A stretch of 64,000 nt of DNA. Origin: a virus. This document shows positions 22,117 through 46,851 of the stretch, one piece after another. Positions within the stretch are counted from its first letter, which is position 1. Every line of letters starts with the position of its first letter. The stretch covers positions 1-64,000 of the IMG/VR virus record IMGVR_UViG_3300046532_001046. The stretch is one strand, 5' to 3'. The notes below the pieces were generated by a model. That model made no database searches. It was given only the letters and a program-made list of their open reading frames with translations, and was not told where the DNA came from. The translations under genes were made by a program, and so were the position numbers.

Positions 22117-22242
22117 CCCTAAGAAGCCACGTTCTCCCCAATACAACTCTTCATCAGTCTCATAGAGTTTCCAGAGGTACTGGTTTAGAGTCGCCTGTGT
22201 GTGCTCTTCACGGCGCTCGTCGGGGTAGATTGGTTCATTCAT
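22114..22242 (-). CDS. Small acidic hypothetical protein (42 aa)
   Basis: MNEPIYPDERREEHTQATLN, QYLWKLYETDEELYWGERGF. The ATG overlaps the end of the zincin gene by eight bases and is preceded by GAGGG five bases upstream within that gene. Its TAG falls in the last palindrome of the array. No family recognised; context suggests it belongs to the operon running from 26.1 kb. Confidence 0.65.
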   Translation of the reverse strand: MNEPIYPDERREEHTQATLNQYLWKLYETDEELYWGERGFLG

Positions 22243-24532
22243 TAACGCCCTCACGGGGCCAGAAGGACAGTTGTGTTTCGTCTGGTTTGGCTTCCTCCGC
22301 TAACAACGCTGCATCACTCAAGCGCTGAACATGCTTCTCTGCGGCCTGCATTCCAACCCGCCCAAAGCCGAGGTCTCTTAGGCCGTCTCGGACGTGCTCG
22401 TTTTCATGGTACAACTTGCCCAAAAGCGTGTTGTTGGCTATGTCAGTATTGCGTTCGCTGTGGATGTTAAGGTCACTAGAGGTGCTACTAGAGCGAGCCA
22501 CCGTCGTGGCGGTCCCCCCGTTCGCTAACTTATGGACCGTAGGTCTTACCGGGTGTTCATTGCCATCTGCGTTGAATCCCCTCAGGCCAAACTGCTCCTT
22601 GACCAGATCCACACGGTCTGGGATGTTGGGTTCATCGGACATAGCACTGTGGATACGGGTTGCGGCGTAGACTGCACGTTGGTGATCCGTCTTCCACGAT
22701 GAGTTCTTGGTTCCGTAACCTCGTATCGACTTCTGGTCTTCGATCTCAACGGAGCGTGTGGGGTTGAGAGAGGGGTTGAGAGCATCCTCGTGTTTGTTTG
22801 CGTAGCCGATGGTTCGGTCTGAGGCAGCATCCGCAACACCCTCCATAACCGGGTCTATATGGTATTGACGGGTGTCCCCACGATTTACGGTACGTAGTCC
22901 GATGTTGGGGTCAATGGCGTGTTCCCGCTCATGGAAGGCGGTGCTGGCGTCGGGCCATTCCGTAACCTGCTTCGATTGCCTCTCTACGGTCTCTGTCTCT
23001 GACGGGATGCGGCGCTTGTGGAAGGCAGTGCTGTAGTCAACTCCTGATCGCCATTCGCCCGCTGGCAATCTCTCACCACCGTGTACCCGTTTGGTCAGAA
23101 ACCCCTCAGCCTCCGGGGTAGGCAACATGACGGGCAAGGGACCCTTTCTTGGCTCCCGGTCCTCAGTCATTGGGTGGTACTCTTTCGTAGGTATGTCTGA
23201 CTGAGAAGCCCAGTTCTTGGGCCTATCTGGATTATCCTTCTGTGCTTCTGATTCGACTCCGGGCGGTAGATAGGACTGGTCTCCGGTGTGGCCCGTCCCC
23301 TTGTGCAACTCAGACTGGAATCCGGCCTCGTGGAGGTGTTTCAGAGCATTAGCAGTATCCCAAGACTGCACGTAGCCTGTGTCATTGAACGTGGCCGGGT
23401 TGAACCTCCCTAAGTGCTTAAACTCATCTGCTTTTCCTGTAGTGCCCGTTACCTTCTTGCGCCCAACGTAGGGCCAGTTGCTGTCACCGGGAGCGCTTGG
23501 CTTGTCCACATAAAGATTGTTATCGTGCTTGCTCATCTTACCGTCTTCATCTGGCTCATCCCACGGCAAGGACACAGGTTCGTTTGGACCAGTATGTGGG
23601 TTTAGCGTTTCCCCGGTCTCCGGGTTGTGGAAGGCGTGCTTTAGTATATTCTCCGTGATGTACGGCTCGCCTGCTTCATCTTCCACCTTGCTCCCCTTGG
23701 GCATAATCTCCTTACTCTTTCTACCTTTTCCCCCGGTGTACCAGTCGGGGTTCCACGCAGTTCCAGTACTGGTGGAGTCCTTGGTTGGGCGGTTCATACT
23801 TCTCGTCTGGTATTCAGTGGTCTTTTGGGCGTAGAACTTGTTTACCGAGGCCGTGTTTGTCCTCGTTTGGTACACCCCACCGCCACGCTGGCCTCGCCCC
23901 TGTACTACCTTCGGCCTATCTGCCACCAGTCGCTCGTCACCGTCCCCCTCATAGAACTCGGCTGCCTTCATCGTGGAAGATCCAGCCCTCTCCCCATGCT
24001 GAGACCTCCGAATAGGCCGGTCAAACTCGGAAACGGGGGTGTCCCCCATAGCGTAGGTCTCATGCAGTTGTGGTGCCCCCTTACCCCGGAGGTCCAGTTG
24101 CCGGTCTACCGCTGCTAAACGCTGTTCCTTGCTGACCGTCGGGTCTCGGGGCAGGCCGGTCCCGGTGTAAGGGTCAAACAGCATCCCCTGACGTTGGGTA
24201 CCGGGGGCGGTTGTGGGAGCCGGGGTCCTGTCGTGGTTTACATCAAGTGCTCCAGTCTTATCCCGAACATCAAATGTTGTGATTTCAGAGTCTGTGCCGG
24301 GTCTTATCTCACCGGGCTCACGAGGCGCATGGAAGGCGGTTCCCCCAGACGGCAAGGGGGTCTGGGTACCCGAGTCACCATCCACGACCCTACGACCGTC
24401 CGTGATCACGTTATTAATATTGTGCAGTTTTGTGAGGTGATCAGGTCCCTGATTGGTGTGGTGCTCTGGAGACAGCCAGTCTGGTCGACCCGGCATGTAG
24501 GTGTTCTTGAACTGTTCTCCCTTTAGAGACAT
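22235..24532 (-). CDS. Large hydrophilic protein with zincin-like metallopeptidase motifs
   Basis: 765 aa, rich in G, P, H, D and charged residues. The first 500 residues look disordered and carry no recognised domain. Residues 534-538 are HEREH (HExxH) and E564-GVA-D568 gives the ExxxD third-ligand motif 26 residues later, the gluzincin arrangement. A second HExxH, HENEH, sits at 709-713 in KLYHENEHVRDGLRDLGF. Two TAFH segments (503, 532) hint at an internal duplication. The peptidase role is inferred from motifs only. Composition and operon resemble the other virion-type proteins downstream of 31.7 kb. Confidence 0.7.
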   Translation of the reverse strand: MSLKGEQFKNTYMPGRPDWLSPEHHTNQGPDHLTKLHNINNVITDGRRVVDGDSGTQTPLPSGGTAFHAPREPGEIRPGTDSEITTFDVRDKTGALDVNHDRTPAPTTAPGTQRQGMLFDPYTGTGLPRDPTVSKEQRLAAVDRQLDLRGKGAPQLHETYAMGDTPVSEFDRPIRRSQHGERAGSSTMKAAEFYEGDGDERLVADRPKVVQGRGQRGGGVYQTRTNTASVNKFYAQKTTEYQTRSMNRPTKDSTSTGTAWNPDWYTGGKGRKSKEIMPKGSKVEDEAGEPYITENILKHAFHNPETGETLNPHTGPNEPVSLPWDEPDEDGKMSKHDNNLYVDKPSAPGDSNWPYVGRKKVTGTTGKADEFKHLGRFNPATFNDTGYVQSWDTANALKHLHEAGFQSELHKGTGHTGDQSYLPPGVESEAQKDNPDRPKNWASQSDIPTKEYHPMTEDREPRKGPLPVMLPTPEAEGFLTKRVHGGERLPAGEWRSGVDYSTAFHKRRIPSETETVERQSKQVTEWPDASTAFHEREHAIDPNIGLRTVNRGDTRQYHIDPVMEGVADAASDRTIGYANKHEDALNPSLNPTRSVEIEDQKSIRGYGTKNSSWKTDHQRAVYAATRIHSAMSDEPNIPDRVDLVKEQFGLRGFNADGNEHPVRPTVHKLANGGTATTVARSSSTSSDLNIHSERNTDIANNTLLGKLYHENEHVRDGLRDLGFGRVGMQAAEKHVQRLSDAALLAEEAKPDETQLSFWPREGVNE

Positions 24533-24533
24533 A

Positions 24534-25181
24534 TCAGCACCCCGGCTTGTTGGAGGGCTTATAGAGGGGGCCTTCTGAAGTGAAGGAGGCCGTTTCGATA
24601 CAATCGTCTTCCAAGCGGGCTAGCCCCTTGTTGGACTCGGTGTACGACCCTCGCCAGCCTTCGACCTCAAACTGGGCAATGTCCCTATCAGACTTGTCGA
24701 AGACAACGCCGTGCTGTTCCTTGTTTAGTTGGAAGAGACGACCGGGGTTAGCGCCGAACCCGCGCTGACCATCTTCCCGTAGGTGCTCAGGGTCACGAGA
24801 AGGTCCTAGGAGGTTGCCCTGCATGTGCAGGAATACACCTCTACCTTTGCCGGTTTCCCCTACACTCTTTATGACCCTGTACGCCTGCTCTACGTTTCCG
24901 AAGTGCTGGGTTACATTGCCTAGAGCGAACTCATTGTCATGCCCGATAAGGGTACCAATACCTCCTTGAGGGCCAGTCTCCTTGATGGACGTGGTCCTCT
25001 GAAGGTCTTGGTTTCTTACCTTACGAATATCAGGATGGACCGACAGTCTCTTTCCTAGATCCCCATCAGGGGGATGCACTGGGCTCCCCTCAGGCCAGTG
25101 GTTAAGACCCCGTGTCGGGCCTTCCGGTTCTGACGGGTCTTGAGGGGTATTAGGAAGGTCGGAGCGCCAACGGTAACCCAT
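24534..25181 (-). CDS. Hydrophilic hypothetical protein (215 aa)
   Basis: MGYRWRSDLPNTPQDPSEPE followed by about 60 low-complexity residues. A folded-looking part (FALGNVTQHFGNVEQAYRVI, GRGVFLHMQGNLLG, FEVEGWRGSYTESN) and the end KPSNKPGC follow. No catalytic motif identified. It sits between two other G/H/D-rich proteins with 1-3-base gaps, so it is probably co-expressed and may be part of the virion interior. Confidence 0.7.
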   Translation of the reverse strand: MGYRWRSDLPNTPQDPSEPEGPTRGLNHWPEGSPVHPPDGDLGKRLSVHPDIRKVRNQDLQRTTSIKETGPQGGIGTLIGHDNEFALGNVTQHFGNVEQAYRVIKSVGETGKGRGVFLHMQGNLLGPSRDPEHLREDGQRGFGANPGRLFQLNKEQHGVVFDKSDRDIAQFEVEGWRGSYTESNKGLARLEDDCIETASFTSEGPLYKPSNKPGC

Positions 25182-25184
25182 TGG

Positions 25185-25922
25185 TTACCTCGCGTCGGGG
25201 TGCATGTTCCATTGCATGTTGCCCGTGTGCTTGTTACGCTTACCCTCAGCCCGCCACTTACCTTCCTTTAGCATCCCAATGTTATCTGGGGTGCTTGTGA
25301 AGGGAATCATGTGACTATCACTCTCGCCTCCACCGGTAGAAGAGGCATCAATCATAAGTTGCTGATGGTTGTCATGCCCTAGAACCTTAGAGGCAGGTAC
25401 TGACAAGCGATCTGGGTCACCGGTTTGCCATGACTCGGGGTAACTTTCACCCGCACGAGCCTTCTTCACTGCACCCTCTGACTGACGGCGCTTTCCTTCA
25501 GCATTTCCCTCCGGGGAGCCCATTCCCAAGTACTCATTGGCCCCTACGTGCCCCTCAAAGTCCTGACCGTACATGGCCTTCTTGGCGAAGGCTTGGTCCT
25601 CTTCCCCCTCAACCATGTCAACCATCTCGTCGCCTCCTACGGTGTAGCCCCCCTTTTCCCACGGGCCTGCTTCAACAGCATCGCGTTCAACCTTCCCGAA
25701 GGCCGACACGCGCTGGCCGTAGTTGGCGCTTTCATCGAAGACTTCGTGGCCTTCAGGTTGGAGTTCACCTGATCCCAGACTGGCGAGTATGCGAGCGTCG
25801 ACCTCCTGCTCCCTCCACAGGGACCCCCGTGGGTAGGCCCCATTCGTTACACCATGTGGGTCGTCGGGACGGTGACCGTCCTTGGAGGCAGCGTGCTTGT
25901 CGTGGTGGTGCATTCGGCCCAT
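25185..25922 (-). CDS. Hydrophilic hypothetical protein (245 aa)
   Basis: Begins MGRMHHHDKHAASKDGHRPD (His-rich, could bind metal). Very charged, with few hydrophobic stretches (VLGHDNHQQLMIDASSTGGG, SHMIPFTSTPDNIGMLKEGK). Overlaps the 65-aa gene upstream by one base. No family recognised. Confidence 0.65.
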   Translation of the reverse strand: MGRMHHHDKHAASKDGHRPDDPHGVTNGAYPRGSLWREQEVDARILASLGSGELQPEGHEVFDESANYGQRVSAFGKVERDAVEAGPWEKGGYTVGGDEMVDMVEGEEDQAFAKKAMYGQDFEGHVGANEYLGMGSPEGNAEGKRRQSEGAVKKARAGESYPESWQTGDPDRLSVPASKVLGHDNHQQLMIDASSTGGGESDSHMIPFTSTPDNIGMLKEGKWRAEGKRNKHTGNMQWNMHPDAR

Positions 25923-26119
25923 TACTCTGAACCCTCCATGAGATCGGTCATAACTGATTCCTGTTCTGCGTCAGATGCCCCTGAGTCCTCGGCCCATGCC
26001 ATCGCACCGGGATCTCCCCAGACGTTGAGGTTGCCTAGATGGGGCTGTGGGACAGATCGGTGCGGACGATCCTGCTGGGCCTGATGTGCCCTTGCATAAC
26101 TATCTGTTGGCTGTGGCAT
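25922..26119 (-). CDS. Small hypothetical protein (65 aa)
   Basis: MPQPTDSYARAHQAQQDRPH with an acidic C-terminus (AEQESVMTDLMEGSE). No Shine-Dalgarno; an extended -10 (TGG-TAAACT) ends six bases before the ATG, so this is probably the leaderless first gene of a four- or five-gene operon ending at 22114. Confidence 0.65.
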   Translation of the reverse strand: MPQPTDSYARAHQAQQDRPHRSVPQPHLGNLNVWGDPGAMAWAEDSGASDAEQESVMTDLMEGSE

Positions 26120-26125
26120 GTCTCA

Positions 26126-26134
26126 AGTTTACCA
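26126..26134 (-). promoter_or_regulatory. Extended -10 promoter, leaderless
   Basis: TGG-TAAACT (hexamer 26126-26131), TGAGAC, then the ATG at 26119. The nine bases are identical to the plus-strand site at 30814-30822. Confidence 0.65.
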
Positions 26135-26153
26135 TCTTTACACAATAGAGATA

Positions 26154-26558
26154 CTAGACACCCTCTGGGTGTAGGTCCACATCATCATCCGTGAAATCTC
26201 TACTATGCTCATCCCACGGGGTCAAGTCACTCTGGGGCACCCTGCCACTGACAGTTAACTTGTCGGCTCGTACATCTGTGCCGTACCATTCCCCATGTGG
26301 ATCGTTCTCTAGTTTGGTACCGGTGTGTTCCACGCTATACACCAGTGGTTCTGGGTTAACCGGAAACCCGGAGTTCTCTGATGCTACTTTGGCATAAAAT
26401 TGGGCAGCGTTGAGGTTCCGGGTGGCGAAGACACTCCCCCCGTATTCCCCGACGACCCCCTGATCATAGTTTCGTAGAGGTGCGGCCTCGTAGGTGAGGT
26501 CCTCGCCCTCCTTGAGAGGCCAAGCAGTACCGTGGTAGAGGGGGTCTGAACTACTCAT
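26154..26558 (-). CDS. Arr-like mono-ADP-ribosyltransferase
   Basis: 134 aa. The order of motifs follows rifampin ADP-ribosyltransferase (Arr): LYHGTAWPLKEGE (Arr has FYHGT..LK.GD), a short loop with NYDQG, then SVFATRNLNAAQFYAKVASE (Arr: VYFT..LDAA..GAELA). VYSVEHTGTKLENDPHG (Arr: Y.VEPTG..EDDPN) and VSGRVPQSDLTPW follow. His9 in YHGT is the expected NAD-binding residue. It probably transfers ADP-ribose from NAD to a host protein or to RNA; the target is unknown. It starts MSSSD like its neighbours and overlaps the next gene by 4 bases. Confidence 0.7.
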   Translation of the reverse strand: MSSSDPLYHGTAWPLKEGEDLTYEAAPLRNYDQGVVGEYGGSVFATRNLNAAQFYAKVASENSGFPVNPEPLVYSVEHTGTKLENDPHGEWYGTDVRADKLTVSGRVPQSDLTPWDEHSRDFTDDDVDLHPEGV

Positions 26559-27298
26559 CGTCCCTGAGACCTCAAGAACTCAACTGAGGCCGGTTGGCTC
26601 ATACCCCTGTTGTACTCTGTATCTGGATTCGTGGGGTATGAGGTCCATGTCACATCTTCCCCGGTGTCCGGGTCCGGCTTTATCTCAACTTCTGGCTCTG
26701 GTTGTTCTGCCCTGTGTGCTATTTCCATGTTCCGCATGGCACCCAAGGCTTCCATAGCAGGACCGAACTGGTGGTTACCCAGATGGATGGCTGATTGGTT
26801 CGCTAACTGCTGTACTGGGGTGTACACGGGCAGTTTTGCGTGGGCTTTAGAGTAACCTTCCCCCCATTCACGCTGTTCCTCAGAAGGAGGGTTGAGCCAT
26901 TCAGAGTCGCTACTGGCTTGATCTAGGTGCCTTACTGCCTGAGCCGTCTTGCTTGAGTAGGGCGTCCACACATCCCATGCCCCCGTAGGAGGTGAAGGGG
27001 CGGCTGTCATTCGGTGGTATACATCTCCGACGTTCTCCAACGCCGAGCCGTAGTCCCTGTTGATCCAGTTATCGTTTCCCAGTTTCTCACCGTGCCGTTG
27101 CTGCCCCGAGAGGGCATAGGCTTCAGGACGGCTCCGCTGCATGGCCCCAGCGTGCCCCATAACGGTGGTGAACTGGTCTGAGGTCATTGAGGACACTTCC
27201 TCGGAGGAGAAGGTGCCTCCCGACCGATGCCTATCCCGAACATCGTCCTCAAACTGGCCCTCAGTACCGGCCTTGACGTATTCATCTGAACTACTCAT
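26555..27298 (-). CDS. Hypothetical protein with MSSSD start and xEGTEGQF motif
   Basis: 247 aa, beginning MSSSDEYVKAGTEGQFEDDV. Helical middle (FTTVMGHAGAMQRSRPEAYA, TPVQQLANQSAIHLGNHQFG, PAMEALGAMRNMEIAHRAE). The YVKAGTEGQF segment belongs to the EEGTHG-type motif seen in three more genes. ATG overlaps the upstream TGA (ATGA). Function unknown; probably packaged or virion-associated by company. Confidence 0.7.
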   Translation of the reverse strand: MSSSDEYVKAGTEGQFEDDVRDRHRSGGTFSSEEVSSMTSDQFTTVMGHAGAMQRSRPEAYALSGQQRHGEKLGNDNWINRDYGSALENVGDVYHRMTAAPSPPTGAWDVWTPYSSKTAQAVRHLDQASSDSEWLNPPSEEQREWGEGYSKAHAKLPVYTPVQQLANQSAIHLGNHQFGPAMEALGAMRNMEIAHRAEQPEPEVEIKPDPDTGEDVTWTSYPTNPDTEYNRGMSQPASVEFLRSQGR

Positions 27299-27750
27299 CT
27301 AGCCCACGGTCCATAGTTGTGCTCTACCGGTATTTCCATATCGGGGTCGATGCTGTAGGCGGCTGCCACCCGGTGGTGCCCCTGAAGCAGAGTGTTAGGG
27401 TCCTGTAGCGTGACCGGGGTGGTGATACCCTCACTAGAGATGCTTTCGTAGAGAGACTCTTCGTTGTTCTGGTACCACGGGTGCTGTGGGTCGGCTTCCC
27501 CCAGTTCAGGACGCCACCCCTCTGGGTCAAGGGTTTCGTTCAACTTCCTATCTTTCAACTGCTGCATACCCTCCATGCGCCAGTCCTCATCGTTAGCATC
27601 CTCCCAAGTACTGGAGAAATCGTTGTACTCTTTCCCTCCATCGACCTCCATGTAGTCCATCGCCTCATTGATATTGAACTTGTCCATGAGTTCCCGCGCT
27701 GGCATGAACATCTGAAGTTGCTGCGGATTGAGACGGTCTGAACTACTCAT
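27295..27750 (-). CDS. ParB/sulfiredoxin-fold protein with NPQQL tag, member 1
   Basis: 151 aa from the ATG at 27750, inside the ATGAGTAG junction with the upstream gene; a GTG six codons earlier is possible. Residues 7-21 are the tag LNPQQLQMFMPAREL. The C-terminal part (LYESISSEGITTPVTLQDPN, then LLQGHHRVAAA with GHHR at 124-127, and DMEIPVEH) is a ParB-fold core. Its GxxR motif binds nucleotide, or DNA in nuclease members. The family includes CTP switches and DNases; which applies here is unknown. Related to 27743..28423 and to 30394..30807 on the other strand. Confidence 0.75.
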   Translation of the reverse strand: MSSSDRLNPQQLQMFMPARELMDKFNINEAMDYMEVDGGKEYNDFSSTWEDANDEDWRMEGMQQLKDRKLNETLDPEGWRPELGEADPQHPWYQNNEESLYESISSEGITTPVTLQDPNTLLQGHHRVAAAYSIDPDMEIPVEHNYGPWAR

Positions 27751-28423
27751 TAGGGAAGTGATCTTCACGATCTACGAGGAACTTCCTAGTCTCGCCGTCG
27801 GACATGCCATGCTCTTGTTTTACCCAGTTGTCGGCCCCTCGGTCGTAGTGATGCTGATGCCAAAGGTTGGTGTCATCCTCTCGCTGTACTTTGTAGGGAC
27901 CACCGGGTATTTCACTCAGGGACCAGCGTAAGCCCCCTTCCAAGGGGTCTTCCTCCGGCTCTGGCGGTGGTGGGTCGTTTGGCCTGCCTAACCTGTCGTG
28001 TTCCCAATGTACGTTACGTTCCCACTGAACAGGTACTTCCATCTTGGGGTCAACACCGGCAGCCGCAGCAATGCGGTGCATACCATCACGTACTAGCGCC
28101 TGTGGATTAACACCTTTACGCATACGTATAATGCCCTCGTCGTGCTGCTCCTTTAGATCCGCTTGGCCCACCAGTCTGATGGGCTTCTGTATCTGAGCCC
28201 CGGAACTAAGGCTGTTCCAGATGCCCCCTCCGTGTGGCTGTTCCCCCGTGTCAGTCGCATACGGTTGCTTGGATTCCTCCAACTTGCGTGTTTGTACATC
28301 TTTAGTAGATTCTCCCTCAAAGTGCTCAAAGGCATGAACACCGTACTGCTTAGGGTCCATGAGTTCACCAGCGGGAATAAACATACGCAACTGCTGCGGA
28401 TTGAGGCGGTCTGAACTACTCAT
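27743..28423 (-). CDS. ParB/sulfiredoxin-fold protein with NPQQL tag, member 2
   Basis: 226 aa. Start taken at the ATG (28423) that overlaps the upstream TGA, giving MSSSDRLNPQQLRMFIPAGE, the same opening as member 1. QTRKLEESKQ is a second shared element. The ParB core reads IIRMRKGVNPQALVRDGMHR (DGMHR at 113-117) then MEVPVQW. A proline-rich linker (DPPPPEPEEDPLEGG) leads to a C-terminal region with YKVQREDDTNLWHQHHY, absent from the others, probably an added domain. Virion-type company; molecular role unknown. Confidence 0.75.
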   Translation of the reverse strand: MSSSDRLNPQQLRMFIPAGELMDPKQYGVHAFEHFEGESTKDVQTRKLEESKQPYATDTGEQPHGGGIWNSLSSGAQIQKPIRLVGQADLKEQHDEGIIRMRKGVNPQALVRDGMHRIAAAAGVDPKMEVPVQWERNVHWEHDRLGRPNDPPPPEPEEDPLEGGLRWSLSEIPGGPYKVQREDDTNLWHQHHYDRGADNWVKQEHGMSDGETRKFLVDREDHFPNE

Positions 28424-29163
28424 AGCAGTTCCAGTTGCTTGGACGTGTCTTTGGCCGGTTCTGGCTGTGGGGGCAGTTCTCCCCGCCTCGTGGCCCAATC
28501 AGCGACGTTTCGGGGCTTGTTTTCGGGGTGTTCGCCGCTTGGGCCGTGAATCATGGTCGCATTTGCCAAACGGGTCTCGGCTGCGAGCGCCGGAAGGGCG
28601 TCATCGGTGAACATTCGGGAGTGGGACTCGTAGGAAGCCTCCTCGCCGTGCCTTGAGAAGGACCTACCGGTCGACAAATGACCGAAAGAGTCGTGAACGG
28701 CCCTAAACTCGTCATTTTCCTCGTCCGACCAGAGGGCATGGCCCCCCGTGGAGGCTGTTGAGAGCACCTTTAGGCGTCGATTGTCCTCAACGTCCCTAGC
28801 AGCGGCTCCGGGGTCGTCGGGGTATGGGTCCTTGTCAGTGACCTCAACAGACACTCCGAGTCCCCCGGACTCCGTAGGGCCGGTTAAATGCTGATACTGC
28901 TGCTGAACCTGAGTCCTCAGGGAGCCATAACTCTTGAGAGTTTCTGGCGAGGGGTCCTCATGGTCCCGATGACGGTGCTCGGTGAAGGTTGCTAAGTGTG
29001 AACTGTCAGCAGTAATGTTGGAGAACTGATCAGACGTGTGGTGTTTACCCATCTTCTCGGCCCAGCGCCCAGCGGCGTCAGCAAGGAGCCCCACAGGCTT
29101 GAAGGTACGCAGGGTACCGCCACCGTGACCAAAGTCTAAGGGCAGTTCCTGCTGTTCTTCCAC
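28420..29163 (-). CDS. Conserved phage protein with HDxFGH / RHGEEA motif
   Basis: 247 aa from a GTG start. N-terminus EEQQELPLDFGHGGG. The core FRAVHDSFGHLSTGRSFSRH, then GEEASYESHSRMFTDDALPA and LAAETRLANATMIHG, has regularly spaced His and Glu residues (HD..GH, RHGEE, SH) that could bind metal. I recall similar tracts in other actinophage proteins but cannot name the family. A leaderless extended -10 sits six bases before the GTG. It is the first gene of the operon that continues through the ParB-fold genes and the Arr-like gene. Confidence 0.65.
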   Translation of the reverse strand: MEEQQELPLDFGHGGGTLRTFKPVGLLADAAGRWAEKMGKHHTSDQFSNITADSSHLATFTEHRHRDHEDPSPETLKSYGSLRTQVQQQYQHLTGPTESGGLGVSVEVTDKDPYPDDPGAAARDVEDNRRLKVLSTASTGGHALWSDEENDEFRAVHDSFGHLSTGRSFSRHGEEASYESHSRMFTDDALPALAAETRLANATMIHGPSGEHPENKPRNVADWATRRGELPPQPEPAKDTSKQLELL

Positions 29164-29169
29164 AGTACA

Positions 29170-29178
29170 AGAATACCA
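29170..29178 (-). promoter_or_regulatory. Extended -10 promoter, leaderless
   Basis: TGG-TATTCT (hexamer 29170-29175), TGTACT, then GTG at 29163. Would drive the operon of tagged ParB-fold and Arr-like genes. Confidence 0.6.
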
Positions 29179-29192
29179 GAATAAAGAGACAT

Positions 29193-29345
29193 CTAGAAGC
29201 GTTGTCTTCTTCCTCTGACGCCGGTACCCATGTACGCCTTCATCAGTTCCCGCTCCAACTCATCGGTCATAGCCTGATTAGGGTAGTAGTGGCCCCTCGG
29301 CGGACGATTCCATCGTTGCTTTAACAAGTTTGCTATTTTCTTCAT
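29193..29345 (-). CDS. Small basic hypothetical protein (50 aa)
   Basis: MKKIANLLKQRWNRPPRGHY, then MTDELERELMKAYMG and a basic end VRGRRQRF. AAAGGC lies six bases before the ATG. The charge pattern would suit nucleic-acid or membrane binding. No family recognised. Confidence 0.65.
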   Translation of the reverse strand: MKKIANLLKQRWNRPPRGHYYPNQAMTDELERELMKAYMGTGVRGRRQRF

Positions 29346-29391
29346 TTCGCCTTTCAAGGCTGGTTTGGCATTAAGAATCTATCGTACTGTC

Positions 29392-29419
29392 TTGACAGGG
29401 AGATGCGGTGTGGTACGCT
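29392..29419 (+). promoter_or_regulatory. Plus-strand promoter with TTGACA and TACGCT
   Basis: Perfect -35 TTGACA (29392-29397), 16-bp spacer ending TGG, then TACGCT (29414-29419), seven bases before the ATG at 29427. Points to a leaderless mRNA. Confidence 0.6.
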
Positions 29420-29426
29420 TGGTCAT

Positions 29427-29576
29427 ATGACCGATACACATGCACCGGAACTCATTGCAGAGATTGAGACCTTCTTGGCAATCACCGCCAAACGTGAGAT
29501 ATTCACGTCTGCCGAGATTCAGGACCTACTACTGGATCTTCGTGGTCTCCTAAGCGAGCGGGTCGTCACTCTCTGA
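29427..29576 (+). CDS. Small plus-strand hypothetical protein (49 aa)
   Basis: MTDTHAPELIAEIETFLAIT, AKREIFTSAEIQDLLLDLRG, LLSERVVTL. Helical and leucine-rich, like a small dimerising or regulatory protein. One of only three plus-strand genes. It has its own promoter, no Shine-Dalgarno, and its end overlaps antisense with the last 27 bases of 29550..30059. Confidence 0.65.
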   Translation: MTDTHAPELIAEIETFLAITAKREIFTSAEIQDLLLDLRGLLSERVVTL

Positions 29577-30059
29577 GGCGGGAGAGGCCAATCCGGCCCC
29601 TCCTTTGCCCTTCAGTTCACTATTTTGTGAACCAGCCCCCCACTTTTCCTTACCCTTAGCAATCGCCTGCCCGACCAACTCTTTACCCTTTTCCTTAACA
29701 GCCGCTTCCCCAGCCTTGACTAGGGGTCCTGTCTTCGGATTCGACCGTGCCGCCATGTACCCCTTAGCGGCTGCTTTACCGACTGTTCCAACGGCCAACG
29801 CTAGGCCGTGCGTGCCTTCTTCTTCGTAGGTGTCATTCTGGGGGTCTACTAGGTCCCCCAAGTCGTTTGCTTCCATATCTTCGATGGCACTGGGCACGAA
29901 GGTGGAAGCCTCGTCAAACGAGATCCCCTCGTCGCGTGCCACGTCAGAGATTACTTCCCGCTGCCCGTGGAACAAGTTGTGCATCACGTCGAAGTCCAGA
30001 TTGAACCCAGAGGTGTGCCCAGCGTTCTGGTGACCGTCGTCAAACGACTTACGTGACAT
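29550..30059 (-). CDS. Hydrophilic virion-type protein with DLGDLVDPQND / EEGTHG motif
   Basis: 169 aa, MSRKSFDDGHQNAGHTSGFN. The tract DLGDLVDPQNDTYEEEGTHG is identical to one in 52802..53167, 23 kb away. After it comes an Ala/Gly/Lys helix (VGTVGKAAAKGYMAARSN, KEKGKELVGQAIAKGKEKWG). Upstream neighbour 30059..30358 overlaps by one base. The conserved acidic tract in otherwise unrelated proteins looks like a docking or processing signal. Confidence 0.7.
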   Translation of the reverse strand: MSRKSFDDGHQNAGHTSGFNLDFDVMHNLFHGQREVISDVARDEGISFDEASTFVPSAIEDMEANDLGDLVDPQNDTYEEEGTHGLALAVGTVGKAAAKGYMAARSNPKTGPLVKAGEAAVKEKGKELVGQAIAKGKEKWGAGSQNSELKGKGGAGLASPASESDDPLA

Positions 30060-30358
30060 TAGTTAGTCCAACTCTGGTGGCCTGCATCGAAGTGTGAGCC
30101 ACGTCCCTGCTGTTCACCACGGTAATACTTCTGTGGCTCGGCCACAGGGTTGTTTGGATTGACGTACTTAGCGGGACTGTCAGGGTGTCCGGGGGACGTA
30201 CCACAGGTTGGGCAGGAGTCATCCTTGTTAGGGGTGTCGGTGGGGCCTTCTGAGCCCTGTCCCGGTATATCCCCTATCCAACCCTTGCTAGGCTTGGTCT
30301 TGCCGGGGTAGTCACCGGGCACGCCACCGTCGGGGGTTGGCTGGGTGTTGAACTCCAT
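30059..30358 (-). CDS. Small hydrophilic protein with CxxCG and HFDAGH motifs
   Basis: 99 aa, Pro/Gly-rich (PTPDGGVPGDYPGKTKPSKG). One CPTCG knuckle, then AKYVNPNNPVAEPQKYYRGE. That resembles the N-terminus of 49738..50469 (ARYVNPENVAAQGQSFYTG). Ends SHFDAGHQSWTN; 31260..31730 ends GHFDAGHT. Leaderless extended -10 six bases before the ATG, arranged divergently with the plus-strand gene 30394. Confidence 0.65.
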   Translation of the reverse strand: MEFNTQPTPDGGVPGDYPGKTKPSKGWIGDIPGQGSEGPTDTPNKDDSCPTCGTSPGHPDSPAKYVNPNNPVAEPQKYYRGEQQGRGSHFDAGHQSWTN

Positions 30359-30364
30359 ACGTAT

Positions 30365-30373
30365 ATGATACCA
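30365..30373 (-). promoter_or_regulatory. Extended -10 promoter, leaderless (divergent pair, minus)
   Basis: TGG-TATCAT (hexamer 30365-30370), ATACGT, ATG at 30358. Lies back to back with the plus promoter at 30382. Confidence 0.6.
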
Positions 30374-30381
30374 GATTACTG

Positions 30382-30387
30382 TACAAT
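30382..30387 (+). promoter_or_regulatory. -10 hexamer TACAAT, leaderless (divergent pair, plus)
   Basis: TACAAT directly preceded by TG, six bases before the ATG at 30394. The 35 bases between the two start codons hold both promoters. Confidence 0.55.
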
Positions 30388-30393
30388 AGGGGT

Positions 30394-30807
30394 ATGACTG
30401 CTTCAGATCATGTACACCCGCAGCAGTTGCGAATGTTCATCCCCGCCAAGGAACTCCATACTACTGAGATGGTAGCCTTAACGGAAATGCAATGGGTAGA
30501 CGAGAACGCTGGAGAGCACAAAGACTGGCAGGAGGCGTTCGTTAACGCTAAGTTTTCACGTCAAGAGGGACCAGAGCAGGTGTGGGACCGTAAGTTGACC
30601 GAATCCAAGCGTAGTGAGCCCTTAGACATCAGCCGCCACGCACAGATTTCCCGGCACGGCATCCTGCGCCCTGTTGTTCTAACTGAAGGTGGAACCAAGA
30701 TCAGGGACGGGCACCACCGTGTCGCCATCGCCAATGACCTAAATCCCGACACAGAAGTACCTGTAGAGTACAAAGAGCGGTCGGAAGCACATGACTTTGT
30801 GGGCTAG
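30394..30807 (+). CDS. ParB/sulfiredoxin-fold protein with NPQQL-type tag, member 3 (plus strand)
   Basis: 137 aa, MTASDHVHPQQLRMFIPAKE, so it carries the tag of members 1 and 2 despite facing the other way. VWDRKLTESKRSE parallels QTRKLEESKQ of member 2. ParB core: ISRHGILRPVVLTEGGTKIR, then DGHHRVAIANDL with GHHR at 106-109, and TEVPVEYKER. It is the most compact member: tag plus core only. It is transcribed alone from a leaderless promoter, so expression probably differs from members 1 and 2. Confidence 0.75.
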   Translation: MTASDHVHPQQLRMFIPAKELHTTEMVALTEMQWVDENAGEHKDWQEAFVNAKFSRQEGPEQVWDRKLTESKRSEPLDISRHAQISRHGILRPVVLTEGGTKIRDGHHRVAIANDLNPDTEVPVEYKERSEAHDFVG

Positions 30808-30813
30808 CCTCCA

Positions 30814-30822
30814 TGGTAAACT
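30814..30822 (+). promoter_or_regulatory. Extended -10 promoter, leaderless
   Basis: TGG-TAAACT, GTTGAC, then ATG at 30829. Starts seven bases after the stop of the ParB-fold gene. Confidence 0.65.
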
Positions 30823-30828
30823 GTTGAC

Positions 30829-31191
30829 ATGCCTCATCGCCTAGGAGACCAGTGGAATAGGGTACAGGCTATGACGCCTTACCAGAAGGGGACGCTTGGT
30901 CAGGTTGGTGCCAAGCCGGGTCTAGCCCGTAAGGTACTTGGTACCCCGTCTGCTCGTCAGGCTGCTGCCAATAGGGATTATCAGGTCGCTGACGACACTC
31001 TGAGTGTGCTTGACGACGCTATTGGGGGGACACCTTTGGGAAAGACCGTGGGGTGGGCTAAACCCAGAGTCGAACGTGGACCAAGGTTGCGGGACACAGC
31101 ATCTAGTCTCTGGTTCAGGGACGAGAAGCGCCTTAAAGAAGGCAAGCCTGCTGCTCCTAGGACCAACGAACAGCCACAGGGCACCCCCTGA
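30829..31191 (+). CDS. Basic hypothetical protein, plus strand (120 aa)
   Basis: MPHRLGDQWNRVQAMTPYQK, GTLGQVGAKPGLARKVLGTP, SARQAAANRDYQVADDTLSV. Basic overall, small hydrophobic helix in the middle and a Lys/Pro-rich tail (LKEGKPAAPRTNEQPQGTP). No family recognised. It has its own leaderless promoter and ends facing 31260..31730 across a palindrome. Confidence 0.65.
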   Translation: MPHRLGDQWNRVQAMTPYQKGTLGQVGAKPGLARKVLGTPSARQAAANRDYQVADDTLSVLDDAIGGTPLGKTVGWAKPRVERGPRLRDTASSLWFRDEKRLKEGKPAAPRTNEQPQGTP

Positions 31192-31210
31192 GCCGTTTTT
31201 CGCCCTCTAT

Positions 31211-31226
31211 CCGCTAGACCTAGCGG
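31211..31226. terminator. Possible bidirectional terminator hairpin
   Basis: Perfect inverted repeat CCGCTAG-AC-CTAGCGG in the 68-bp gap between convergent genes. No long T-run follows on either strand (TTTTT occurs 12 bases before it on plus), so intrinsic termination is uncertain. Confidence 0.4.
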
Positions 31227-31259
31227 GCCTCAGTGTGGAGAGACACCGAGTCCATCCGG

Positions 31260-31730
31260 TCAGGTGTGACCCGCATCGAAGTGTCCACGAGAGCCATTTG
31301 CCCGCTCCTGCTTCGACCGTTCCTGATCCCGTGCGTCCATCCCCATGCGAATCAGGCCCCATTTCTGGTCGTTTTCGCCCCACTGCCCTTCCGTGCCCTC
31401 TTCGACGTAATCTAACGTACCGTCGGGGTCCTCCGGGTCGGAATCCTCGCCTTGGGGCTTCCGGTTGGCGTAAGCCGCAGCCGGGTGTGTGTCACTGTGC
31501 ATGGCCCAGTGGTTGAACTGCCCGTGGGTGCCCTCTTCGACGTAGTCATCGCGGGATTTCATCGGTAGTACGGGTCGCTCCTGCTGTGGAGCGGCTGGCT
31601 TCTCTGAGAATAGTGCCGCCAACCCCTGCCCGAGGCCGTCAAACGCACCTGTGATCTGCTTGCCGGTTTCCGTCTGCTCGCCGGGGCTCTTGGGTGTTAG
31701 CGATTTCGTTGGGGGTCGTTGCTTTGGCAT
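31260..31730 (-). CDS. Hydrophilic virion-type protein with two EEGTxGQ repeats
   Basis: 156 aa, MPKQRPPTKSLTPKSPGEQT. Contains DDYVEEGTHGQFNHWAM and later DYVEEGTEGQWGENDQKWG, two copies of the motif shared with 26555..27298, 29550..30059 and 52802..53167. Ends GSRGHFDAGHT. Mostly disordered in appearance. Leaderless extended -10 (TGG-TATTAT) six bases before the ATG. The repeats suggest binding to a repetitive virion lattice, which is inference. Confidence 0.7.
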   Translation of the reverse strand: MPKQRPPTKSLTPKSPGEQTETGKQITGAFDGLGQGLAALFSEKPAAPQQERPVLPMKSRDDYVEEGTHGQFNHWAMHSDTHPAAAYANRKPQGEDSDPEDPDGTLDYVEEGTEGQWGENDQKWGLIRMGMDARDQERSKQERANGSRGHFDAGHT

Positions 31731-46464: not shown

Positions 46465-46851
46465 CTACAGAATGTCAAAGAGCATCCTGCTTGGTTCATC
46501 ATACTCGGGGTCACCTTGGTTTGGCAAGAGGTCCGGGTCGATTGGTTCCGAAAGCATACGTTCCTCGTGTGCTAACCAACACTTACCACACCGGCAGCCA
46601 CGTCTGTAGTCCTCCCACTTTCCATGAGCCGTGGATGACTTCTTACGCTCCTTGGGAGTCAGCCCACCGAACATTCCCCACTTCTCGTCCTGTCCCACCT
46701 TTAAGCATGTCTCCCACACGGGACAGGTTGAGCACACGACTCGGCCCATCTCGTACCACTGGTTAGGGTCCTTGGCCTCCATCGGGGGGTACCACATAAA
46801 CTGGGCTTTCCCCCGGCAGGGGGCCTCTTTTATCCAATCGGGTGTTTCCAT
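46465..46851 (-). CDS. WhiB-like iron-sulfur transcription factor
   Basis: 128 aa. Four cluster ligands Cys12, Cys40, Cys43 and Cys49 (APCRGKA, VVCSTCPVWETCL) and the GMFGGLT turn at 59-65 followed by PKERKK define a Wbl protein. Wbl proteins occur only in Actinobacteria and their phages, where they bind the sigma factor and change promoter choice. An added C-terminal segment, YRRGCRCGKCWLAHEER with Cys86, 88 and 91, resembles a small zinc finger seen after some phage WhiB domains. It may control the early/late switch or block host Wbl function. Confidence 0.95.
   Translation of the reverse strand: METPDWIKEAPCRGKAQFMWYPPMEAKDPNQWYEMGRVVCSTCPVWETCLKVGQDEKWGMFGGLTPKERKKSSTAHGKWEDYRRGCRCGKCWLAHEERMLSEPIDPDLLPNQGDPEYDEPSRMLFDIL

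Follow-up and report, generated by a model that had tools for sequence, protein, structure and literature searches.

Why should unrelated proteins, encoded by one phage and its relatives, begin with the same dozen residues? The question is raised by a gene cluster (positions 22235 to 31730) in a 64,000-nucleotide stretch of viral DNA, hereafter 'the window', which comprises bases 1-64000 of a virus record 100,418 bases long (IMG/VR IMGVR_UViG_3300046532_001046, here G000). Three ParB-fold proteins of the cluster share an N-terminal opening, and two of their neighbours begin with five residues of it. In related phages, residues 1-12 of that opening (the 'tag') stand at the head of 17 sequence-dissimilar protein families. 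By analogy with the capsid-targeting sequences of phages T4 and P1, we consider it rather probable that the tag is a packaging signal, carried by effectors that would be delivered with the virion.

The evidence that carries this argument comes largely from the relatives, in which the tag reads M[AS]A[HS][ED]x[LI]x(2-3)Q[FL]. A search of viral contigs with the ParB family, relying upon the ParB core motif alone, recruited three loci (L025, L029 and L033) whose ParB homologues open MAAHESLNHEQLQMFMPAREL and similar; in those same loci unrelated genes open alike, including GNATs (MAAHESLSDYQF, MAAHENLGGQF), an Arr-like (rifampin ADP-ribosyltransferase-type) ADP-ribosyltransferase (ART; MAAHESINDKQFFHGT), a possible cysteine-protease-like protein (MAAHEHLNPDQL) and others. 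A scan with the tag pattern itself yielded 27 stretches, and the non-redundant set holds 43 tagged proteins in 18 'body' clusters, one of which is a wrong-frame artefact, leaving the 17 families at the BLASTP cut-off (1e-3) on which that count depends. Distinct folds are fewer than clusters, because several clusters are GNATs and several are ParB-like; Pfam assigns GNAT and Arr among the tagged proteins, and most others match no family. Across the 43 proteins, position 3 is A in 35, position 4 is H in 27, position 5 is E in 35 and position 7 is L or I in 37, followed by a spacer of two or three residues and then by QF (24 proteins) or QL (14). A set recruited by pattern is biased toward that pattern, but this bias does not affect the set from the three ParB-recruited loci or the tag variants adjacent to each match. 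The tag codons of the relatives change synonymously and the residues are kept, and such free synonymous change on unrelated families indicates that the constraint acts on the protein. When a closely similar pattern was run against 257 Gb of cellular genomes, 30 matches were obtained, mostly internal or in the wrong frame, which are taken as chance because none has tagged neighbours.

The tag is restricted to one phage lineage. Its DNA pattern retrieved two more contigs, G001 (near-identical) and G002 (related). Of the 20 tagged contigs, 10, including the longest ones, encode a capsid protein with 62-80% identity to that of G000, on which basis all are regarded as one lineage of uncultured phages. 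(The capsid proteins of two contigs, L043 (G010) and L059 (G019), are 62-73% identical to that of G000 and longer by about 70 residues, which lie between query positions 275 and 304.) A tail sheath, a terminase, a portal (record positions 91333-93000), a scaffold-like protein (90438-91277) and a capsid protein (89289-90398) are among the products of G000, which accordingly represents a contractile-tailed phage; its capsid protein is 58-60% identical to those of the Streptomyces phages BRock, GiJojo and LuckySocke, and its host is probably an actinobacterium. A cysteine-patterned product at 46465-46851 of the window, read from its sequence as a candidate WhiB-type regulator, would point to an actinobacterial host. 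DNA and protein searches of cultured phages found no homologue of the tagged ParB proteins, of the zincin-like protein described below or of the tag by itself, apart from one insignificant match; the tagged Arr protein gave three insignificant matches only. No description of a MAAHExLxxxQF-type tag was found in the literature searched.

Is the tag separable from the folds that follow it? The first-pass annotation of the window had treated residues 5-21 as one unit, and had named inclusion of the tag in the ParB fold as one outcome that would count against its proposal. Structure predictions divide it. The AlphaFold2 model of the 30394 protein (mean predicted local distance difference test score, pLDDT, 75) is matched in the PDB almost exclusively, among the top 50, by ParB, Noc, KorB or sulfiredoxin structures (top probability 1.00, E 7e-3), which places the modelled protein in the ParB/Noc/KorB/Srx superfamily. 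In that model residues 15-17 form a strand and residues 18-22 a helix, with a pLDDT of 87 over residues 11-20 and an average of 61 over residues 1-10. Residues 14-21 (MFIPAKEL) thus fall in the predicted strand 1 and helix of the ParB fold, and MFIPAxEL is what we take to be the first ParB strand (IPxxxL). In the model of a tagged ART from a relative (L037), which matches the Arr structures 2hw2 and 9iaf with probability 1.00, residues 1-6 have a pLDDT below 50, residues 1-10 average 48, the first strand starts at QFFHGT and the fold is built from residue 11; this fold match, together with the family profile of the window's own ART given below, assigns these proteins to the Arr-type ARTs. The pLDDT values and strand positions put residues 1-10 outside the ART fold, and ahead of the first strand of the ParB fold. 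The idea that the opening is merely ParB fold was accordingly rejected for residues 1-12 and accepted for residues 13-21 on the strength of these models, and the separable tag is predicted to comprise residues 1-12 only. Cleavage of the prohead-protease type at AxE (AGE|L, ARE|L or AKE|L) was also considered and rejected: the site lies in ParB strand 1, one member has AKH, and no protease was recognised in the scan of morphogenesis proteins.

In the window itself, where start codons were picked by sequence context, the shared opening described by the first-pass annotation is present on all three ParB-fold proteins, at the ATGs of 27750 and 28423 (minus strand) and 30394 (plus strand). They also have in common a C-terminal block, G(H/M)HR...P(K/D)xE(I/V)PV, containing the GxHR-type phosphate-binding motif of the ParB/Srx superfamily, with G, H and R invariant in 21 sequences. 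The tag regular expression has no further match among the chosen set of open reading frames of the 100-kb record, against an expectation of 0.000 from shuffled N-termini. That one tag stands on sequence-unrelated proteins, as first proposed for the window, is strongly supported by the sequences of the relatives and weakly by those of the window, where the full tag is found on ParB-fold proteins only; the broader proposal, that a short N-terminal sequence on unrelated proteins acts as a targeting signal, likewise gains strong support from 17 tagged families in a single lineage.

If the tag is a targeting signal, where might it lead? The genomic position of the tagged genes offers one indication. 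The window cluster abuts tail-fibre genes, and in a relative (L046) the tagged genes, about ten from different families, lie in a row, followed by a homologue of the window's 28420 gene and then by tail-fibre genes homologous to window gene 18598. In Rhodococcus phage E3 the protein homologous to 28420 is gp205, which its record labels structural; next to it lies gp206, which belongs to phrog_2579 ('ParB C-terminal domain') and matches GNAT weakly. The phrog_3170 domain and DUF7178 are fused in E3 gp205, whereas in mycobacteriophage Sebata (gp106 and gp107) and Gordonia phage Skog (165 and 166) they are encoded by separate neighbouring genes. The N-termini of Sebata gp106 and gp107 have a common tag of their own (MRITSAREQVEMLSPW and RIVTAREQFEMLQPW), and in Skog a tag is present on 166 (VSARDQFETLAPW) and 173 (RTAREQVATLAPW), with a shorter and weaker version, VTAREQ, on 165. 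A split of the two halves of gp205, each then bearing a common N-terminal sequence, is what a packaging signal required on every polypeptide would produce; drawn from annotation and sequence, this comparison suggests a link to the virion. Tail-fibre adjacency, the structural annotation of the E3 homologue and the fused-versus-split comparison together give delivery by the virion a better grounding.

These phages also suggest that other lineages may have tags of their own. The AR[ED]QxxxLxPW tag of cluster C mycobacteriophages and Skog resembles that of the window lineage in being a short N-terminal sequence on non-homologous neighbours (Sebata gp106 and gp107; Skog 166 and 173), but differs in its sequence and in that only two exact copies per genome were found; no description of it was found in the literature searched. 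PHROG 30890 (142 positions) matches Sebata gp106 (L015 5807-7609) at residues 1-20 only, so that the cluster C tag probably extends to another protein family. The phrog_3170 homologues of many other phages have other tags, and the window-lineage tag was not found on them. In four contigs (L089, L093, L095 and L099) the genes after the portal encode two to four consecutive proteins of different length that carry KHG[TSE]HDQ[KS][ST]HGNWA, one of them with the 28420 domain; this sequence is possibly a third 'dialect'.

The sequence of events that we infer would run as follows. Residues 1-12 (M-small-small-H/S-E/D-x-L/I-x(2-3)-Q-F/L) would constitute a modular, partly disordered address tag, and the tagged cargo an operon of otherwise unrelated, mostly single-domain effectors: ParB-fold proteins, an Arr-like ART, GNATs, probably a zincin peptidase and others. 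Late in infection the tag would dock each of these proteins to a component of the head (or tail) assembly, and the set would be co-packaged in the virion and enter the next cell with the DNA, there to disarm host defence or to modify host macromolecules. The tagged set would then be the un-fused counterpart of a polyvalent protein, with a packaging signal of its own on each domain. Of this scheme, the analysis establishes the tag and its modularity, its confinement to one lineage, its position outside the predicted ART fold, the ParB and Arr folds and the genomic setting, whereas packaging, the docking partner, injection and the targets are inferred.

Several observations weigh against this proposal. 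E3 gp205 has neither the window-lineage tag nor that of Sebata and Skog, and its structural status derives from the annotation of its record; BRock, the nearest cultured phage as judged by capsid protein, has no matching tag. The scan of morphogenesis proteins, which did not cover them all, recognised no prohead protease, leaving trimming of the tag in the manner of T4 unsupported. For many tagged families enzymatic activity is presumed, most having no recognisable domain. Finally, a position-specific scoring matrix built from the non-ParB tags ranks the window ParB proteins 2nd, 5th and 6th among 473 open reading frames, which is suggestive only as support for a tag on those proteins.

Any docking role would suit a linear motif that is short, conserved and placed outside the fold, and one protein has several internal copies of the GTHGQF type that resemble generic docking motifs. 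The tag could then be a docking peptide for some other common partner (a host complex, or an early hub protein of the phage), with the proteins acting unpackaged inside the infected cell. Against such an arrangement stand the tail-fibre adjacency that is conserved in relatives, the structural annotation of the E3 homologue of the 28420 neighbour and the fused-versus-split pattern of E3, Sebata and Skog, and we regard it as unlikely.

The DNA of the window raises a different concern. As the first-pass annotation had stated, two more genes, at 26558 (Arr-like ART) and 27298 (GTEGQF protein) on the minus strand, start MSSSD; those five residues, all that the two have of the tag, are identical at the DNA level (ATGAGTAGTTCAGAY; ATGAGTAGTTCAGAC/T) and confined in the cluster to gene starts. 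The ParB-fold proteins open MSSSDRLNPQQLQMFMPARELM, MSSSDRLNPQQLRMFIPAGELM and MTASDHVHPQQLRMFIPAKELH. The 12-mer ATGAGTAGTTCA occurs four times in the 100 kb of G000, every copy at one of these gene starts; the 38 kb of G002 hold three copies, each again where a gene of the cluster starts. It overlaps the end of the upstream gene, which it closes by virtue of stop codons in its other two frames. In the window, therefore, the MSSSD of the ART and the GTEGQF protein may be a nucleotide-level, coupled-start cassette, and it can be argued that no targeting is involved at all: three ParB paralogues would have kept an ancestral N-terminus, and a start cassette would have been copied to neighbouring genes for translational coupling. 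The restriction of the window's full tag to ParB-fold members, the identical DNA of all four MSSSD starts, the 4- to 8-base overlaps with upstream genes (with stop codons in the other frames) and the inclusion of MFIPAxEL in the predicted fold all suit this explanation. The relatives weaken it, since there the same positions are kept on unrelated families with synonymous codons free to vary, as does a non-ParB protein of G002 that opens MSSSSLGKQF. Beyond MSSSD, the window copies themselves differ synonymously in 4-7 of 22 codons, which fits a constraint on the protein. We judge the explanation improbable.

Lastly, the bacterial clamp-binding consensus is QLxLF, and the resemblance of QLRMF to it had prompted the proposal of a sliding-clamp-binding peptide that recruits proteins to replication forks; this is very improbable indeed, as QLxMF is confined to ParB-fold members (with MF inside a predicted strand), non-ParB tagged proteins continue after Q[FL] with unrelated residues and no xLF, and the motif is in none of the replication proteins called in G000.

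The remaining genes of the cluster are listed in the table together with those discussed above. The 22235 product is a candidate zincin, as judged from conserved HExxH motifs; its relatives in L025, L029 and L038 start M..LG.QF.NT and contain HE.GH, and the L025 homologue matches Pfam M43 weakly (E 0.038 only). An internal motif, QGMLFxPxTG, is conserved in the 22235-24532 product and its homologues in L025, L029, L038 and L060. The ART at 26558 matches Pfam Arr-ms with an E of 5e-5 and 23.8 bits, just under the gathering cut-off of 25. A homologue of the 28420 protein (L144/L145; 50% identical) keeps QEQLPLDY near its N-terminus and QPELPF at its C-terminus. The motifs DYVEEGT[HE]GQ[FW] and [HS]F[DN][AD]GH recur in the window (31260-31730, 30059-30358 and 29550-30059), in L021 (598-2139) and in L052 (13302-13793).

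Table. Features of the tagged gene cluster, in window coordinates (aa, amino acids).
Feature	Position	Strand	Description
765-aa protein, presumed zincin-type metallopeptidase	22235..24532	-	start MSLKGEQFKNTY (variant tag); two HExxH motifs; relatives in L025/L029/L038
215-aa conserved protein	24534..25181	-	also in relative G002
245-aa protein	25185..25922	-	start region common with G002 (MHHHDKHAASKDGHRPDDPHGVT)
Arr-like ART, 134 aa	26154..26558	-	start MSSSDPLYHGT; shortened tag without Q[FL]; Pfam Arr-ms
ATGAGTAGTTCA start cassette	26547..26558; also 27287-27298, 27739-27750, 28412-28423	all -	
GTEGQF protein, 247 aa	26555..27298	-	start MSSSDEYVKAGTEGQF
ParB-fold protein, 151 aa	27295..27750	-	opening MSSSDRLNPQQLQMFMPAREL (MSSSDRLNPQQLQMFMPARELM at ATG 27750); weak ParB PHROG matches; homologue of the modelled 30394 protein
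Tag proper, residues 1-12, 27750 gene	27715..27750	-	MSSSDRLNPQQL; aligns with MAAHExLxxxQ[FL] of homologues and of unrelated proteins in relatives
ParB-fold protein with C-terminal extension, 226 aa	27743..28423	-	opening MSSSDRLNPQQLRMFIPAGEL (MSSSDRLNPQQLRMFIPAGELM at ATG 28423)
Tag proper, residues 1-12, 28423 gene	28388..28423	-	
247-aa protein, phrog_3170 domain	28420..29163	-	homologues Rhodococcus phage E3 gp205, Sebata gp107, Skog gp166; N-terminal QQELPLDF, C-terminal QLELL
ParB-fold protein, 137 aa	30394..30807	+	opposite strand; opening MTASDHVHPQQLRMFIPAKEL (MTASDHVHPQQLRMFIPAKELH); AlphaFold2 model, PDB matches
Tag proper, residues 1-12, 30394 gene	30394..30429	+	
120-aa protein	30829..31191	+	start MPHRLGDQW, variant of the LGxQF opening of G002 and relatives
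156-aa protein	31260..31730	-	DYVEEGT[HE]GQ[FW] twice internally; HFDAGH C-terminal

Should the tag indeed direct packaging, a simple rule of sequence would identify unannotated phage proteins that travel in the virion and are injected, which are otherwise recognised only when cultured phages are analysed by mass spectrometry. Such a rule would also provide a handle on the anti-defence proteins of uncultured actinobacterial phages. It may equally prove right or wrong that actinobacterial myophages employ an undescribed packaging code, in which an exchangeable 12-residue tag adds single-domain effectors, gene by gene, to the injected load, with separate dialects in separate lineages (MAAHExLxxxQF; AR[ED]QxxxLxPW in cluster C and Skog; KHGxHDQxTHGNWA in another group). 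The general question thereby raised is how many phage lineages have a packaging dialect of their own.

Known systems provide precedents for the proposal. The diverse internal proteins of T-even phages have only a capsid-targeting sequence in common (PMC3012670), and T4, which is also contractile-tailed, packages the ART Alt; the window lineage, known here from its sequences, likewise has diverse small putative effectors with only a short N-terminal sequence in common, but differs in the sequence of its tag, in having no recognised prohead protease and in its many more families. In P1, the first 30 residues of DarB are enough for packaging of that protein, and no common consensus among the Dar proteins was found (PMC9024508); the N-terminal signal would be alike, the cargo of P1 is anti-restriction, and of the two only the window lineage has an explicit consensus. 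In phage E3, gp205 contains the 28420 domain and is annotated as structural, and the E3 proteins (gp205 and gp206) are multidomain, without such a tag. Virion-packaged polyvalent proteins include ARTs and ParB domains and, like MuF-fused effectors, have metallopeptidase as well as ART and ParB-like domains and are encoded beside late genes (PMC5512222, PMC9503650). A polyvalent protein has at least two effector domains per polypeptide, and Pfam and PHROGs gave no second domain in the tagged proteins: the domains that are fused in one polypeptide in the polyvalent and MuF systems are, in the window lineage, mostly separate, and each is tagged.

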